This document shows, piece after piece, positions 3,311-14,401 of a stretch of DNA of 33,329 nt. The DNA comes from Defluviitalea phaphyphila (GTDB lineage: Bacteria; Bacillota; Clostridia; Lachnospirales; Defluviitaleaceae): assembly GCF_001466305.1 (NCBI RefSeq), contig NZ_JWID01000018.1, forward strand, positions 1 to 33,329. Direction: 5' to 3'. The number at the start of each line of letters is the position of its first letter. Positions within the stretch are counted from its first letter, which is position 1. The notes under the pieces are model-generated. The model saw only the letters and a list, made by a program, of their open reading frames with translations, ran no database searches and was not told the DNA's origin. The translations under genes and the position numbers were made by a program.

Positions 3311-5005
3311 TTAATATCTATTATTTAAAAATTTTTCTACTTCCTCAGCCGGTACTGGCTTACTCCAATAATATCCTTGTCCTATATCACATTTAAGTTT
3401 TAATAATTCTTCTAGTTGATCTTTATTTTCTATCCCTTCTGCAATTGTTTTTAAATTTAAACTATGAGCCATAGAAATAATAGCATTTACAATAGCCTTA
3501 TCATCTTCATCTTTAGTAATATCTCTAATAAATGATAAATCTATCTTTAAATAATTTAGCGGAAATTTTTTAAGATAGCTAAGTGAAGAATACCCTGTCC
3601 CAAAGTCATCTATAGAAATCGAAAAACCTAAATCTTTCATATTTCTTAAAATTTCATAACTCGAACTAATATCTTCCATAAAAGTGGACTCTGTAATTTC
3701 AAATGTAAGCATTTCTGCATTTAAATCATAATCTAAAATAATTCTCATAATTTCTTGAAATAAGCTTTTATCTCTAAATTGAACTGGAGAAAGATTAATA
3801 GCAACTGGAACTGTTAAAAATCCTTTATTAATCCATTCTCTAATTTGTTTACATACTATTTTTATAACTTGAATCCCTACTTCTTTTATTAATCCAGTTT
3901 CTTCTAAGATAGGTATGAATAAATTTGGAGATATCATTCCTTGTTTTTCGTCATATAATCATATTAATGCTTCAAATCCTTGCAACCTTTTATCTGCCAA
4001 ATTAAAATAAGGTTGATAAAATACAGTAAATTTATTTTGTTTAAAAGCTTTTAATAACTTATTTTCCATAATTAGAAAATTTTTAGCATCTAAATTCATA
4101 TGCTTCCCATAAAACATGTATTTAAAAGAAGGATTTCTTTTTGCTTGGGATAAAGCTATTTCTGCATTAGATAAAAGCTGTTTCATATTCATACCATCAT
4201 TGGGGTAAATAGAGATCCCTATAGACATAGCTAATATAACTTCTTGTTTTTCAATTTTAATAGGTTTTTCCGTTGATTTTAAAATTTTCTCTATATAAAT
4301 AAATATATCTTCTAACTTTTTAATATCTTTTAATATAATGCCAAATTCATCTCCACCAATACGACTTACTATATTTTCTTCCCCTACTATTTTACATAAA
4401 CGATTTCCTATAACCTTAAGAACCATATCACCAAATTCTGTACCAAAAGTTTCATTAACAAAAATAAATTTTTTTATATCTATAATAACTAAAGCTAATA
4501 TCTTTTTTTCTAATTCTGCACTATCTATTTCTTGAGTTATTTTTCTACAAAACTGCGTTCTATTGGGAAGACCTGTCATAATATCATAATGATATAAATA
4601 GTTTAACTTATCCTCTAATTTTTTATTCTCTGTAATATCTTTTCCAGTAGAAACAAAATATATAATTTCTCCATTTTCATCTCTTATAGGAGAAATACTT
4701 TGATCTAGATAAAATATCTCTCCGTCTTTTTTTCTATTCAAAATAATATTTCTATAGGGTTGTCCACTCGAAATAGTATCCCATAAAACTTTATAAAATT
4801 CCTTATTATATTTGTCTGATTTCCAAATAGCAGGGGTTTTCCCTAAAATCTCATCTGTTTTGTATCCTGTTATTCTTTCCACAGATTCATTAGCATATTC
4901 AATTATTCCATTTTTATTAGTTATTAAAAACCAATCTACTGCTTGACCTACTGCCATCATAAACTTTTTTATATCTGATGTTATTTTGTTTGTAAAATGA
5001 CTCAT
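3311..5005 (-). pseudogene. PAS-GGDEF-EAL cyclic-di-GMP protein interrupted by one in-frame TGA
   Basis: A sensor that would make and/or degrade cyclic di-GMP. The first part (5005 to 3959, 348 residues) carries a PAS domain (about 15-130) and a GGDEF domain (about 137-300) with the start motif DIMTGLPNR and an intact GGDEF at 217-221 without an RxxD inhibitory site. It ends GFEALI followed by TGA (3959-3961). The same frame continues without another stop as LYDEKQGMISP and a further 200 residues of EAL domain with intact INLSPVQF, EITEST, IDDFGTGYSSL, AEGIEN and GQGYYWSKP. The TGA falls at the Arg that normally follows EAL(I/L), a residue that contacts the substrate. So one substitution (CGA or AGA to TGA) splits a protein of about 564 residues. 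No ribosome binding site is placed to start the second part. The truncated product could still act as a diguanylate cyclase. The start has GGAGGGG 4 bases before the ATG. Confidence 0.85.
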
Positions 5006-11327: not shown

Positions 11328-11486
11328 ATGAAATGCCCTACTTGTGGAAATGAAGTAGATATTAAAATAAATTCTCGTTGTCCTAGGTGCAATACTATAG
11401 TTAATTATCCATATAAAAAATGTGAAGATTGTAAAGGTTGTTCTTTTTTCAAAAAATGTCCTAAAGATAATTTAAAATCAAAATAA
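11328..11486 (+). CDS. eight-cysteine mini-protein at the end of the feo operon
   Basis: Function unknown. The 52 residues contain eight cysteines. The N-terminal half is a zinc ribbon (Cys3, Cys6, Cys18, Cys21 in two CPxC pairs), and the C-terminal half has C-x2-C-x2-C-x5-C-P (Cys32, 35, 38, 44), similar to an iron-sulphur or second metal-binding site. The ATG at 11328 is chosen because it follows AGGGGTG and the cysteine motif begins at once; an upstream in-frame ATG would lie inside feoB. It starts 14 bases after feoB and ends before a terminator, so it is part of the iron operon. By position it could serve as a FeoC-like accessory or iron sensor, but there is no sequence match to FeoC that I can assert. 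Confidence 0.8.
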   Translation: MKCPTCGNEVDIKINSRCPRCNTIVNYPYKKCEDCKGCSFFKKCPKDNLKSK

Positions 11487-11505: not shown

Positions 11506-11535
11506 ACCATCTTGAAAAATAGATGGTATTTTTTA
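11506..11535 (+). terminator. terminator of the feo operon
   Basis: ACCATCT pairs with AGATGGT over an 8-base loop and is followed by ATTTTTTATT. The T tail runs into the first of two direct repeats upstream of agrB. Confidence 0.8.
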
Positions 11536-11564
11536 TTACATTTCACTACAATTTTATTACATTT
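11531..11564 (+). promoter_or_regulatory. paired 13-bp direct repeats, candidate LytTR (AgrA-like) binding site
   Basis: TTTTATTACATTT occurs exactly at 11531-11543 and again at 11552-11564, a 21-bp period or two helical turns. Regulators with LytTR domains bind two 9-10-bp direct repeats with this period just upstream of the -35. The second copy abuts the -35-like TTAACA of the agrB promoter, and a LytTR regulator is encoded nearby. Binding itself is inferred. Confidence 0.6.
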
Positions 11565-11595
11565 TTAACATTAATGTATTTTTTTATGTTATAAT
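11565..11595 (+). promoter_or_regulatory. agrBD promoter with extended -10
   Basis: TGTTATAAT (11587-11595) is a perfect extended -10. TTAACA (11565-11570) stands 19 bases upstream as a weak, over-spaced -35, which fits a promoter that depends on an activator. The leader is about 40 bases. Confidence 0.6.
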
Positions 11596-11642
11596 TGTAT
11601 CATCTTAAAGATATATTTTAAAAAAGGTTTGGTGAATCTGCT

Positions 11643-12203
11643 TTGCAATATTTAATTAATTTAATATCATTTAAAGTTTATAGGGAAAAATTAATATCTC
11701 ATAGTGATATTCGTAAAATGAGATATGCTATGACAGTTATTGCCCATGAATTTACCAAAACATTTCTTCTTTTCATTATTTTTTCTTTACTTGGTTATTT
11801 TAAATTGTTTTTATTTTCATTTTGTGTCTTAATATTTATACGACCTTTTTCAGGGGGCTTACATTTTAAAAGTCCTTCTGTTTGCTTTTTAGTATCCTTG
11901 ATTTTCTTTCTGATGACAGTTATTATACTACCCCATATTTTTATACCAAACTTTTTTATTTCCTTGATAATAGGAGGTATAAGTATATTATTAATCTTCT
12001 TAAATTCTCCAAAACCATCGCCCCTACGTCCTATTATCAATCCAAAAAGAAGACAAAATTTTAAATATGTATCTACCGTATTTTCTTTGATTTTGCTAAT
12101 TATTTTACTTACATTTATACATAATTCCACATTTTTAGCTTGTGGAATATATACTTTGTTTCTTCAATCTTTACAATTATTAGGGAAGGGGGATGTATTA
12201 TGA
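11643..12203 (+). CDS. agrB: AgrB-type autoinducing-peptide processing protease
   Basis: Membrane cysteine protease that cuts the AgrD precursor and forms the thiolactone ring of the autoinducing peptide. The 186 residues have the family length and about six hydrophobic segments. The hallmark RPFSGGLHF holds His74, and Cys81 follows seven residues later, the same spacing as the His77/Cys84 catalytic pair of Staphylococcus aureus AgrB. The Pro/Arg/Lys-rich cytoplasmic loop near 125-140 is typical. The start is a TTG at 11643, about 7 bases after GGTGA. The stop overlaps the agrD start (ATGA), indicating translational coupling. It is preceded by an extended -10 promoter and LytTR-type direct repeats. 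Confidence 0.92.
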   Translation: MQYLINLISFKVYREKLISHSDIRKMRYAMTVIAHEFTKTFLLFIIFSLLGYFKLFLFSFCVLIFIRPFSGGLHFKSPSVCFLVSLIFFLMTVIILPHIFIPNFFISLIIGGISILLIFLNSPKPSPLRPIINPKRRQNFKYVSTVFSLILLIILLTFIHNSTFLACGIYTLFLQSLQLLGKGDVL

Positions 12204-12337
12204 TAAAGAGAAAAATCTTAACACCTGTTCTACTTTCTCTTGCAAATTTCTTTGTACTCGCTGCTTACACAACTAAATTGTATGTTTGCTTCTACATGTG
12301 GGGAGAACCTAAATGCCCAAAAGATTTATTAAAATAA
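12200..12337 (+). CDS. agrD: AgrD-type autoinducing peptide precursor
   Basis: Precursor of a cyclic quorum-sensing peptide. The 45 residues have the three AgrD parts: an amphipathic N-terminal leader (MIKRKILTPVLLSLANF), a core with Cys30, and a charged C-terminal tail, GEPKCPKDLLK (35-45), matching the DEPK.PTEL pattern of AgrD proteins. By family logic AgrB would cut after Trp34 and close a five-residue thiolactone Cys30-Phe-Tyr-Met-Trp34, with an exocyclic tail ending in LYV. The N-terminal end of the mature peptide cannot be read. The start at 12200 overlaps the agrB stop and follows a purine-rich site (GGGAAGGGGG). An extra Cys39 in the tail is notable. Its last three codons overlap the 3' end of the convergent kinase gene. 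Confidence 0.9.
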   Translation: MIKRKILTPVLLSLANFFVLAAYTTKLYVCFYMWGEPKCPKDLLK

Positions 12338-13588
12338 TATCTTAAAGGCTATATATGGATTTTCTAAGGAAAGCTCTATGGTTCCATTATATTTATCAAC
12401 TATGGTCTTAACATTATATAGACCATAACCATAGTGCTTTCCTTCCTTAGTGGAAAAACCCTTTTTAAAAATAGAATTAAGATATTTAGCTGGAATAGGT
12501 TTCCCCGTATTTTTCACCTCGATTAAGTTTTGATTACCCAAAGTTCCTAGAGTTACTATAACCTCTTTAGGAACTTTTTCTAAATCTTCTACTGCTTCTA
12601 TAGCATTATCTAATAAATTTCCTAAAACTTCTACTAACTCATATTTTTCTAACTTATATTCTGGTATTTTATTTACTATATTAAGTTTAAAATCAATTTT
12701 TTTATCTTCAGCCAAAATTTTTTTACTATAAATAATAGCACTTAAAACAGGGTCACTAATATTTAAAATTTTATCTAATTTTTTGAAATCTTTAATTAAT
12801 CCTTGTAAATATTTATTTATTTCTTCCATAGCTTTTTCTGAATTTTCTATTTCTGTAATACCATAAATAGAATTTAAATGATTAGAATAATCATGTTGTT
12901 TTCTCCTAGTTTCTTCCATGAGTTTTTTTACATAAGGTATATATTTTTCATTAACAAAAATCTGTTCCTCTTGTGTTCTTAATATAATAGTTTGATAAAA
13001 AATATAAACATTTATGGATATCCATAGAAATAATCCTATTAATTTTATAGGATTATTATTAAACTCCACATTATTATTCATATACCAAATATATAAAAAA
13101 CCCATAATTAAAGAAATACTATTTAAAAATATTATACCTAAAATTCTATATTCTTTATTTAATATTTTTTTTATATTATTTACAATTCTGTACTTTTTTA
13201 TTATAATACAGCATATAATTATAATACTATTAATAAATAATCCATTAATAAATGTATAATAACTATCTTTTAAAAATATTATTAAAATATATGTAACGAT
13301 CATTTGAATTCCCATGACAACTCCAAAAGCTATAAGAAATATAAAAAACATCTTTTTAAAAGGAACTTTAAATAATTTATTTCCTAAAATAAATGTTACA
13401 AAATATATTATTATAAAACTATTAGATAATTCATATCGATTTAATATAAACACTAAAAAAGATATTATAAAAATCAATATTAATTTTTTTAAAAAATTTT
13501 TATTAAATTTTTCATTTAAACTTTCACATATTGTTAAAAAACCTATTATTTCCATTATAGATAGTATAATTGCTTCATACAACTTCAT
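12329..13588 (-). CDS. AgrC-like GHKL sensor histidine kinase
   Basis: Membrane sensor kinase, the probable receptor for the AgrD peptide encoded opposite. The 419 residues comprise six or seven hydrophobic segments (about 5-200), a linker and coiled coil, the phosphoacceptor His232 in RKQHDYSNHL (the HDY context is typical of AgrC-type kinases), and a GHKL ATPase domain with N box LGNLLDNAIEAVE, G1 box VKNTGKPIP and G2 box GYGLYNVKTIV. The start at 13588 has AGAGGTGA and overlaps the end of the upstream regulator gene by 14 bases, so the two are coupled. Its stop lies inside agrD on the other strand. Pairing with agrBD is inferred from family and position. Confidence 0.9.
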   Translation of the reverse strand: MKLYEAIILSIMEIIGFLTICESLNEKFNKNFLKKLILIFIISFLVFILNRYELSNSFIIIYFVTFILGNKLFKVPFKKMFFIFLIAFGVVMGIQMIVTYILIIFLKDSYYTFINGLFINSIIIICCIIIKKYRIVNNIKKILNKEYRILGIIFLNSISLIMGFLYIWYMNNNVEFNNNPIKLIGLFLWISINVYIFYQTIILRTQEEQIFVNEKYIPYVKKLMEETRRKQHDYSNHLNSIYGITEIENSEKAMEEINKYLQGLIKDFKKLDKILNISDPVLSAIIYSKKILAEDKKIDFKLNIVNKIPEYKLEKYELVEVLGNLLDNAIEAVEDLEKVPKEVIVTLGTLGNQNLIEVKNTGKPIPAKYLNSIFKKGFSTKEGKHYGYGLYNVKTIVDKYNGTIELSLENPYIAFKILF

Positions 13589-14333
13589 TATTGTTCACCT
13601 CTTTTCTATCTATAACATTTATAAATTTATTTTTATATTTATTACTTATATAAGCTGGGATTTTATAATTGTAAAAATATACAGTCCAAGCATTTCGACC
13701 CTTTTTTTTAATCTCTTTTATGTACTCAACATTAATAATATAAGACTTATGAGTTTGCATAAATAAATCTTTTGATAGCATATTTAAAACTTTTTTCATA
13801 CTTAAATTATTTATTTCATAAACTTCATTTTGAGTATGTATTAAACAATTTCGGCCTTGGGATTCTATAAATATTATTTCATCTTCATAAATTGATAAAA
13901 TAAAACTTTTTAATTTAAATTTTATCTTTTTTCTTTCTGTCTTATTATTTTTTACTTCTTTTTTTATAGCTCTTATTAATTTTTCAGTTACTTCTAATAT
14001 ATCTTTTTTTTCATAGGGTTTTTCTATAAAATCATAACAATGAATTTTTTTAAAAGCTTTTAATTGAAAATATACATGACTAGTAATAAAAACTATATAA
14101 CTAAATTCATATCTATCAATTTGTCTAATTTTTTCTGCAAGTTCTATTCCAGAAATATCTGGAAGTTCTATATCTAAAAAAAATAAATCAATATCCTGAT
14201 TTCTTAATATTTCTATAGCTTTTTTCCCAGTTTCTGCTTCATATATATTTATTTCATAAGTAATTTCTTTTAAAATATTTATTACTCTTTTCCTTTCATG
14301 GAAGTTATCTTCTACTAATAAAATTTGTATCAT
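13575..14333 (-). CDS. LytTR-family response regulator (AgrA-like)
   Basis: Cytoplasmic two-component regulator. The 252 residues comprise a receiver domain (about 1-120) with the acidic pocket VEDN (7-10), the phosphoacceptor Asp54 in FFLDIELPDISG and the conserved Lys in FIEKPYEKKD, then a LytTR DNA-binding domain (about 140-250) with ILSIYEDEIIFIES, MQTHKSYIINVEYI and the C-terminal KNKFINVI. The ATG at 14333 is chosen because GGAGG lies 6-7 bases upstream; an upstream in-frame TTG at 14351 has no such site. It precedes and overlaps the kinase gene. LytTR domains bind paired direct repeats, and such repeats lie before agrB. Confidence 0.93.
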   Translation of the reverse strand: MIQILLVEDNFHERKRVINILKEITYEINIYEAETGKKAIEILRNQDIDLFFLDIELPDISGIELAEKIRQIDRYEFSYIVFITSHVYFQLKAFKKIHCYDFIEKPYEKKDILEVTEKLIRAIKKEVKNNKTERKKIKFKLKSFILSIYEDEIIFIESQGRNCLIHTQNEVYEINNLSMKKVLNMLSKDLFMQTHKSYIINVEYIKEIKKKGRNAWTVYFYNYKIPAYISNKYKNKFINVIDRKEVNNNEVV

Positions 14334-14372
14334 AAAATTCCTCCATGACAAATAGTTGTATTTTATATCATT

Positions 14373-14401
14373 ATTTTACCATCAATTCAATATAAATACA
14401 A
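14373..14401 (-). promoter_or_regulatory. promoter of the regulator-kinase operon
   Basis: Minus-strand TTGTAT (14396-14401), a 17-base spacer ending TGG, and TAAAAT (14373-14378): a good sigma-A promoter with an extended -10 TG, about 40 bases before the regulator start. Similar short motifs flank it (AAATAGTATTTTA at 14414-14426, AAATAGTTGTATTTTA at 14350-14365). Confidence 0.6.

Follow-up and report, generated by a model that had tools for sequence, protein, structure and literature searches.

In the textbook agr quorum-sensing loop, the receptor increases along with the signal. A contig of Defluviitalea phaphyphila (NZ_JWID01000018.1, positions 1 to 33,329; the window hereinafter is this whole stretch of 33,329 nucleotides) raises the question of what kind of control operates when the genes for the signal and those for the receptor lie on opposite strands and run toward each other. 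In the window, agrB and agrD converge on the gene for an AgrC-like sensor histidine kinase which, in its own unit, is preceded by the gene for a LytTR regulator (Table 1). Our analysis indicates that this locus is probably a functional agr-type quorum-sensing system consisting of two convergent units, with feedback acting on the signal unit only; the sequence evidence further suggests that the signal and the receptor are controlled separately.

The original prediction, made from the sequence of the window alone, described a complete agr-type locus in tail-to-tail order, different from the canonical agrBDCA order in which all genes share one direction. All four genes were found at the predicted positions, with domain searches backing each of them, and agrBD indeed faces the kinase-regulator pair encoded on the opposite strand. 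AgrB matches PF04647 with 115 bits (cut-off 23), and AgrD narrowly passes the NCBIfam model TIGR04223 (19.6 bits, cut-off 19), with no match in the Pfam search; the kinase contains the GHKL and SPOB_a domains, and the regulator consists of REC (PF00072) and LytTR (PF04397) domains. Within the two units, agrB and agrD overlap by 4 bp, and the regulator and kinase open reading frames (ORFs) overlap by 14 bp; the TTG start of agrB has no close Shine-Dalgarno sequence. The residues singled out in the original prediction, namely, His74 and Cys81 of AgrB, Cys30 of AgrD, His232 of the kinase, and Asp54 of the regulator, are all present and are also conserved among the relatives, with the exception of AgrD Cys30, which is replaced by serine in about half of them. 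Specifically, H74 and C81, together with R67, G71, and G72, are invariant in an alignment of 19 AgrB sequences; the 22 aligned kinases all share Q231, H232, and N236; and Asp54 is invariant among the three closest regulators, those of the window and of two loci from another genus of the same family (L024 and L026).

The original prediction held that the functional pairing would be unlikely if the kinase clustered with non-peptide receptors; the kinase falls with AgrC instead. Among solved structures, the kinase profile best matches the Staphylococcus aureus AgrC kinase module (6e52, 7e-22), and AgrC is also the top PDB fold match of an AlphaFold model built from 22 sequences (mean predicted local distance difference test score, 77.7; predicted template modelling score, 0.48). 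The matches to AgrC structures fall in the cytoplasmic part of the protein, and hydropathy analysis of the sensor part reveals 7 hydrophobic segments; the NCBIfam model of staphylococcal AgrC spans the kinase end to end, with a score far under the cut-off. An unrelated type of sensor, considered as a candidate identity of the kinase, is unsupported, AgrC being both the best solved and the top fold match.

The comparison set includes a single genome of the genus, and L024 and L026 share with the window all four genes, their layout, and the 9-bp overlap between agrD and the kinase gene. When 392 genomes of the order (Lachnospirales) were searched with the AgrB alignment, 42 loci were obtained, in 25 of which agrB and agrD converge on a kinase-regulator pair. 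These convergent loci come from the families f1, f4, f6, f8, f22, and f23. Besides the family of the window, at least five families of the order have the layout, and among the 391 genomes of the class that were searched, it was detected in other orders as well. The five closest kinases (>300 bits) all converge on an agrB, and thus, in the comparison of relatives that had been proposed as a check on the pairing, agrBD and the kinase-regulator pair did not turn out to reside at unrelated loci. A chance gene neighbourhood was rejected in view of the recurrence of the layout across families and orders. An origin from a phage or plasmid was rejected as well: AgrB has no match in the phage and plasmid collections, and the plasmid matches of the kinase are distant. 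In the AgrB tree, 41 of the 91 sampled rows are convergent; among the others, the kinase gene is upstream and co-directional in 15, downstream and co-directional in 8, and divergent in 7, whereas 6 are loci of a second type (see below), and 14 have no kinase nearby or cannot be judged. These counts are not class-wide frequencies because the sample was drawn by similarity to the AgrB of the window. The tree implies at least 10 changes between the convergent and other layouts, with many deep forks unsupported.

The evidence that feedback may be limited to the signal unit comes from the region upstream of agrB. Ahead of the agrB promoter and beside a putative extended −10 element, there is a 9-12-9 direct repeat (21-bp period), a putative operator of the LytTR type. 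This repeat aligns without gaps with the corresponding regions of L024 and L026 (three genomes in all), where the extended −10 element, TGTTATAAT in the window, is aligned to TGCTACAAT at an equal distance from the repeat. Across 21 order-level convergent loci (four close relatives were left out), the 21-bp period upstream of agrB reaches z-scores of 6.8, 8.3, and 8.5 for three word sizes, compared to −0.2, 0.4, and −0.4 for the region ahead of the regulator gene. The z-score upstream of agrB is 6.4 in 16 convergent loci outside the order and −1.1 in 17 loci of other layouts. The letters of the repeat vary between lineages. In the window itself, the region upstream of the regulator gene contains no 21-bp repeat. 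The separate control of signal and receptor, which the original prediction had put forward as a consequence of the gene order, gains support from these repeats that precede agrB but not the regulator gene.

It is plausible that each unit has a promoter of its own, judging from the sequence motifs. The candidate regulator-kinase promoter at 14393-14365, recognized by eye, is absent from a stricter promoter scan, which lists another one at 14455-14427. Searches of the same genome with three forms of the operator motif returned the agrB site along with one or two one-mismatch matches, which are no commoner than those of a reversed-pattern control, and a fuller motif, with up to 3 mismatches allowed, matched the genome only once (0 for the control). 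An operator-based regulon was rejected because the extra matches are no more frequent than in the control. Upstream of agrB in several relatives (L024, 6826-6918; L026, 7832-7918; L094; L096; L101), there is a second, inverted operator repeat pair that faces a divergent gene; the window has no such copy.

The two units typically meet at their very ends. For 20 of the 25 loci from the order, the spacing between the stop codons of agrD and the kinase gene ranges from a gap of 4 bp to an overlap of 18 bp; the gap is 14 to 71 bp in the remaining 5, and it amounts to 15 bp in L107, a locus with two agrD genes. The exact 9-bp overlap of the window is also found in L083 and L084 from another family and in L154 and L156 from outside the order. 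A simple scan detected no intrinsic terminator on either strand of the junction in 23 of the 25 loci, with one present in the other 2. As a background, we used 26 other convergent ORF pairs from the same fetched loci, a small and approximate set chosen by a crude rule, in which the median gap is 83.5 bp and 1 pair falls within the range of −20 to +5. As the junction of the two units leaves no space for a terminator, the agrBD and kinase-regulator transcripts probably overlap at their 3′ ends.

Nearly all convergent relatives keep the AgrD pattern [C/S]-x3-[aromatic or hydrophobic]-G-E. Of the 25 order-level loci, about half have Cys as the ring residue, like the window, and about half have Ser; by parsimony, the kinase tree requires 5 exchanges between the two, and the AgrB tree requires 4. 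The loci L083 (Ser) and L084 (Cys), from two genomes of one genus, differ in this residue. The ring of L024 is uncertain because Cys adjoins Ser there; the residue of L026 was read by eye as Ser (SILLW) and counted as such (the script gave I); and AgrD of L100 is compatible with a six-residue ring. Downstream of agrB in L107 (3990-4574, minus strand), there is a tandem pair of agrD genes with predicted rings SFLFF and SFCFF. In L091 (3852-4673, minus strand), agrB and agrD lie in one open frame that is not interrupted by a stop and has an internal ATG where agrD begins; the two genes may be naturally fused, or the frame may have two starts.

The same genome carries a second complete agr set, located beside a tRNA cluster (L017, 660-3651 on contig C67). 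In this locus, the regulator, kinase, and agrD genes are on one strand, and agrB alone is on the other strand, converging on them. Loci of this type recur in five other genomes of the family, keep a gap of 18-34 bp with a hairpin in 5 of the 6 cases, and contain no 21-bp repeats. The AgrB clade of this type adjoins a clade in which the kinase gene and agrB are co-directional (support 86), and this position suggests that the layout arose by inversion of agrB.

Under the reading that we favour, AgrB would cut and cyclise AgrD, as in the agr family generally, to produce a peptide with the predicted five-residue thiolactone ring CFYMW. By the same family analogy, this peptide would be sensed by the AgrC-like kinase with its seven predicted transmembrane segments, and the kinase would phosphorylate the LytTR regulator. 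The regulator would then bind the 9-12-9 repeat beside the agrBD promoter, leading to more signal; judging from where the repeat lies and from its conservation, the feedback would affect signal output while leaving the receptor unit outside the loop. Several observations weigh against this scheme. A repeat located beside a promoter would fit activation and repression alike; strong repeats (9 or 10 of 10 matches) occur in only about one third of the convergent loci tested; and the z-scores overstate independence because the loci share ancestry. Furthermore, the genome motif searches found no target besides agrBD. The weaker relatives of the kinase are mixed, and some have no agrB nearby. The latter, in particular, the more distant L115 and L117, could indicate that the kinase senses something other than the product of this AgrD, with the gene neighbourhood being incidental, as could L003/L122, where agrBD (with a Ser ring) lies on a short contig with no facing kinase. 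Nevertheless, such an incidental association appears highly improbable considering that the five closest kinases all face agrB, that AgrC is the nearest relative of the kinase, and that the pair recurs across families and orders.

Two other explanations accept the pairing but differ on what the layout means. The locus could be an ordinary agr system that is regulated as in the textbook loop, with the convergent order resulting from a neutral rearrangement and the tail overlap from mere genome compaction. Every part of the locus is a standard agr part, and the layout follows the AgrB tree to a fair extent, so that common descent alone could explain its spread; moreover, clostridia are known to have agrBD and agrCA as separate operons (PMC12312760; PMC10301443). 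However, the repeat period precedes agrB in the convergent loci but neither the regulator gene nor agrB in other layouts, and the tail distances are much tighter than those of the small background set. We regard a purely neutral origin as unlikely, even if worth keeping in mind. Alternatively, the overlap itself might be regulatory: strong agrBD transcription, running antisense into the kinase gene, would lower the receptor output and make the system a self-limiting, excludon-like switch. The near-universal lack of an intrinsic terminator at the junction is compatible with such coupling, in contrast to the gap and hairpin of the second-type loci in the same family, and there are precedents in the overlapping transcripts covered by an excludon review (PMC7154746) and in the streptococcal peptide locus sil, with its opposing, overlapping transcript (PMC3673130). 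Yet, the junction gaps in the f6 clade, which comprises six loci, measure 14 to 71 bp, and overlap of coding sequences may reflect compaction only. Antisense coupling is a speculative proposal, and a switch of this kind seems to us possible but not likely.

Compared to known systems, the window locus combines familiar parts in an unfamiliar arrangement. Like S. aureus agrBDCA, it encodes AgrB, an AgrD with a five-residue ring, a multi-transmembrane AgrC, and a LytTR regulator, and the paired 9-bp units separated by 12 bp near the promoter resemble the two 9-bp AgrA sites, 12 bp apart, at the S. aureus P2 promoter (PMC10482373). In S. aureus, however, signal and receptor are encoded in a single operon, with a divergent RNAIII, whereas the window has two convergent units, with repeats before agrBD only. 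In the window, none of the Rfam families attains its gathering score, although a divergent RNAIII analogue could escape such a search. Separate agrBD and agrCA operons have been described in Clostridium acetobutylicum (PMC10301443) and in clostridia generally (PMC12312760), and the neighbouring signal and receptor pairs make C. acetobutylicum similar to the window. The order described for C. acetobutylicum is agrBD-agrCA followed by the next gene, so the operons are apparently co-directional; the ring has six residues, and a tail overlap is not mentioned in the text consulted. The agr2 locus of Clostridioides difficile, with the order agrACDB and a suggested single transcript (PMC3754575), is also a complete set in which the regulator gene is ahead of the kinase gene, but all its genes share one direction; the second locus, L017, is closer to agr2 than the window locus is, except for the inverted agrB. 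The ring reported for Listeria monocytogenes, A[CFMFV] (PMC12312760), resembles the predicted CFYMW, although the genes there follow the single order agrBDCA, and the lactone peptides of Staphylococcus pseudintermedius and Enterococcus faecalis have a ring Ser (PMC12312760), like about half of the convergent relatives and unlike the Cys-containing AgrD of the window. In the open-licence literature searched, we found no description of the convergent agr form, which is weak evidence of novelty; with modest confidence, we consider the convergent form to be new, split agrBD/agrCA operons being already known.

With AgrA-type repeats ahead of the signal genes alone and the units arranged tail to tail, the control logic of these systems would be unlike that of the textbook loop. 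It is even conceivable, but doubtful, that they represent a widespread clostridial form of agr with signal-only feedback, antisense agrBD transcription damping the receptor, and repeated switches between thiolactone and lactone rings. The arrangement also provides a handle for genome mining: an agrB followed by a small ORF and then by a converging kinase gene would point to likely signal-receptor pairs in Clostridia, including those whose AgrD is too short or too divergent for annotation. The repeated Cys/Ser exchanges, in turn, supply natural pairs for examining how receptors follow a changed ring chemistry.

Table 1 Coordinates of the agr genes, their putative control elements, and the adjacent terminator in the window
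Feature	Position	Strand	Details
Intrinsic terminator of upstream feo gene group	11506-11527	+	Terminator scan; 7-bp stem, then T run
Putative LytTR-type operator	11538-11567	+	ACATTTCAC (11538-11546), 12 bp, ACATTTTTA (11559-11567)
Putative extended −10 of agrBD promoter	11587-11595	+	TGTTATAAT; read from sequence
agrB	11643-12203	+	186 aa, TTG start; His74 and Cys81; PF04647, E 2.5e-33
agrD	12200-12337	+	45 aa; predicted five-residue ring C30-F-Y-M-W34 at 12287-12301, then GEPKCPKDLLK
agrD/kinase gene tail-to-tail overlap	12329-12337		9 bp
AgrC-like sensor histidine kinase	12329-13588	-	419 aa; 7 hydrophobic segments; His232; GHKL and SPOB_a
AgrA-like response regulator	13575-14333	-	252 aa from ATG at 14333; REC (Asp54) and LytTR
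Possible regulator-kinase promoter	14393-14365	-	TTGAAT-N17-TATAAA; by eye

Among the loci detected in the searches, L155 and L153 (contig C18 of genome G471) and L154 (genome G564) contain several convergent agr sets and fragments clustered together. In these clusters, some of the agrB copies include in-frame TGA stops, and some of the kinase copies are short. Elsewhere in the window, a gene for a PAS-GGDEF-EAL protein (3311-5005, minus strand) is split into two ORFs by one in-frame stop immediately after the EAL motif (FEALI*LYDE), which may reflect a pseudogene, a sequencing error, or two proteins. The terminator of the feo gene group is located directly 5′ of the agrBD control region, and ahead of this region, immediately following feoB, there is a small 52-aa, Cys-rich, zinc-ribbon-like ORF (11328-11486, plus strand).

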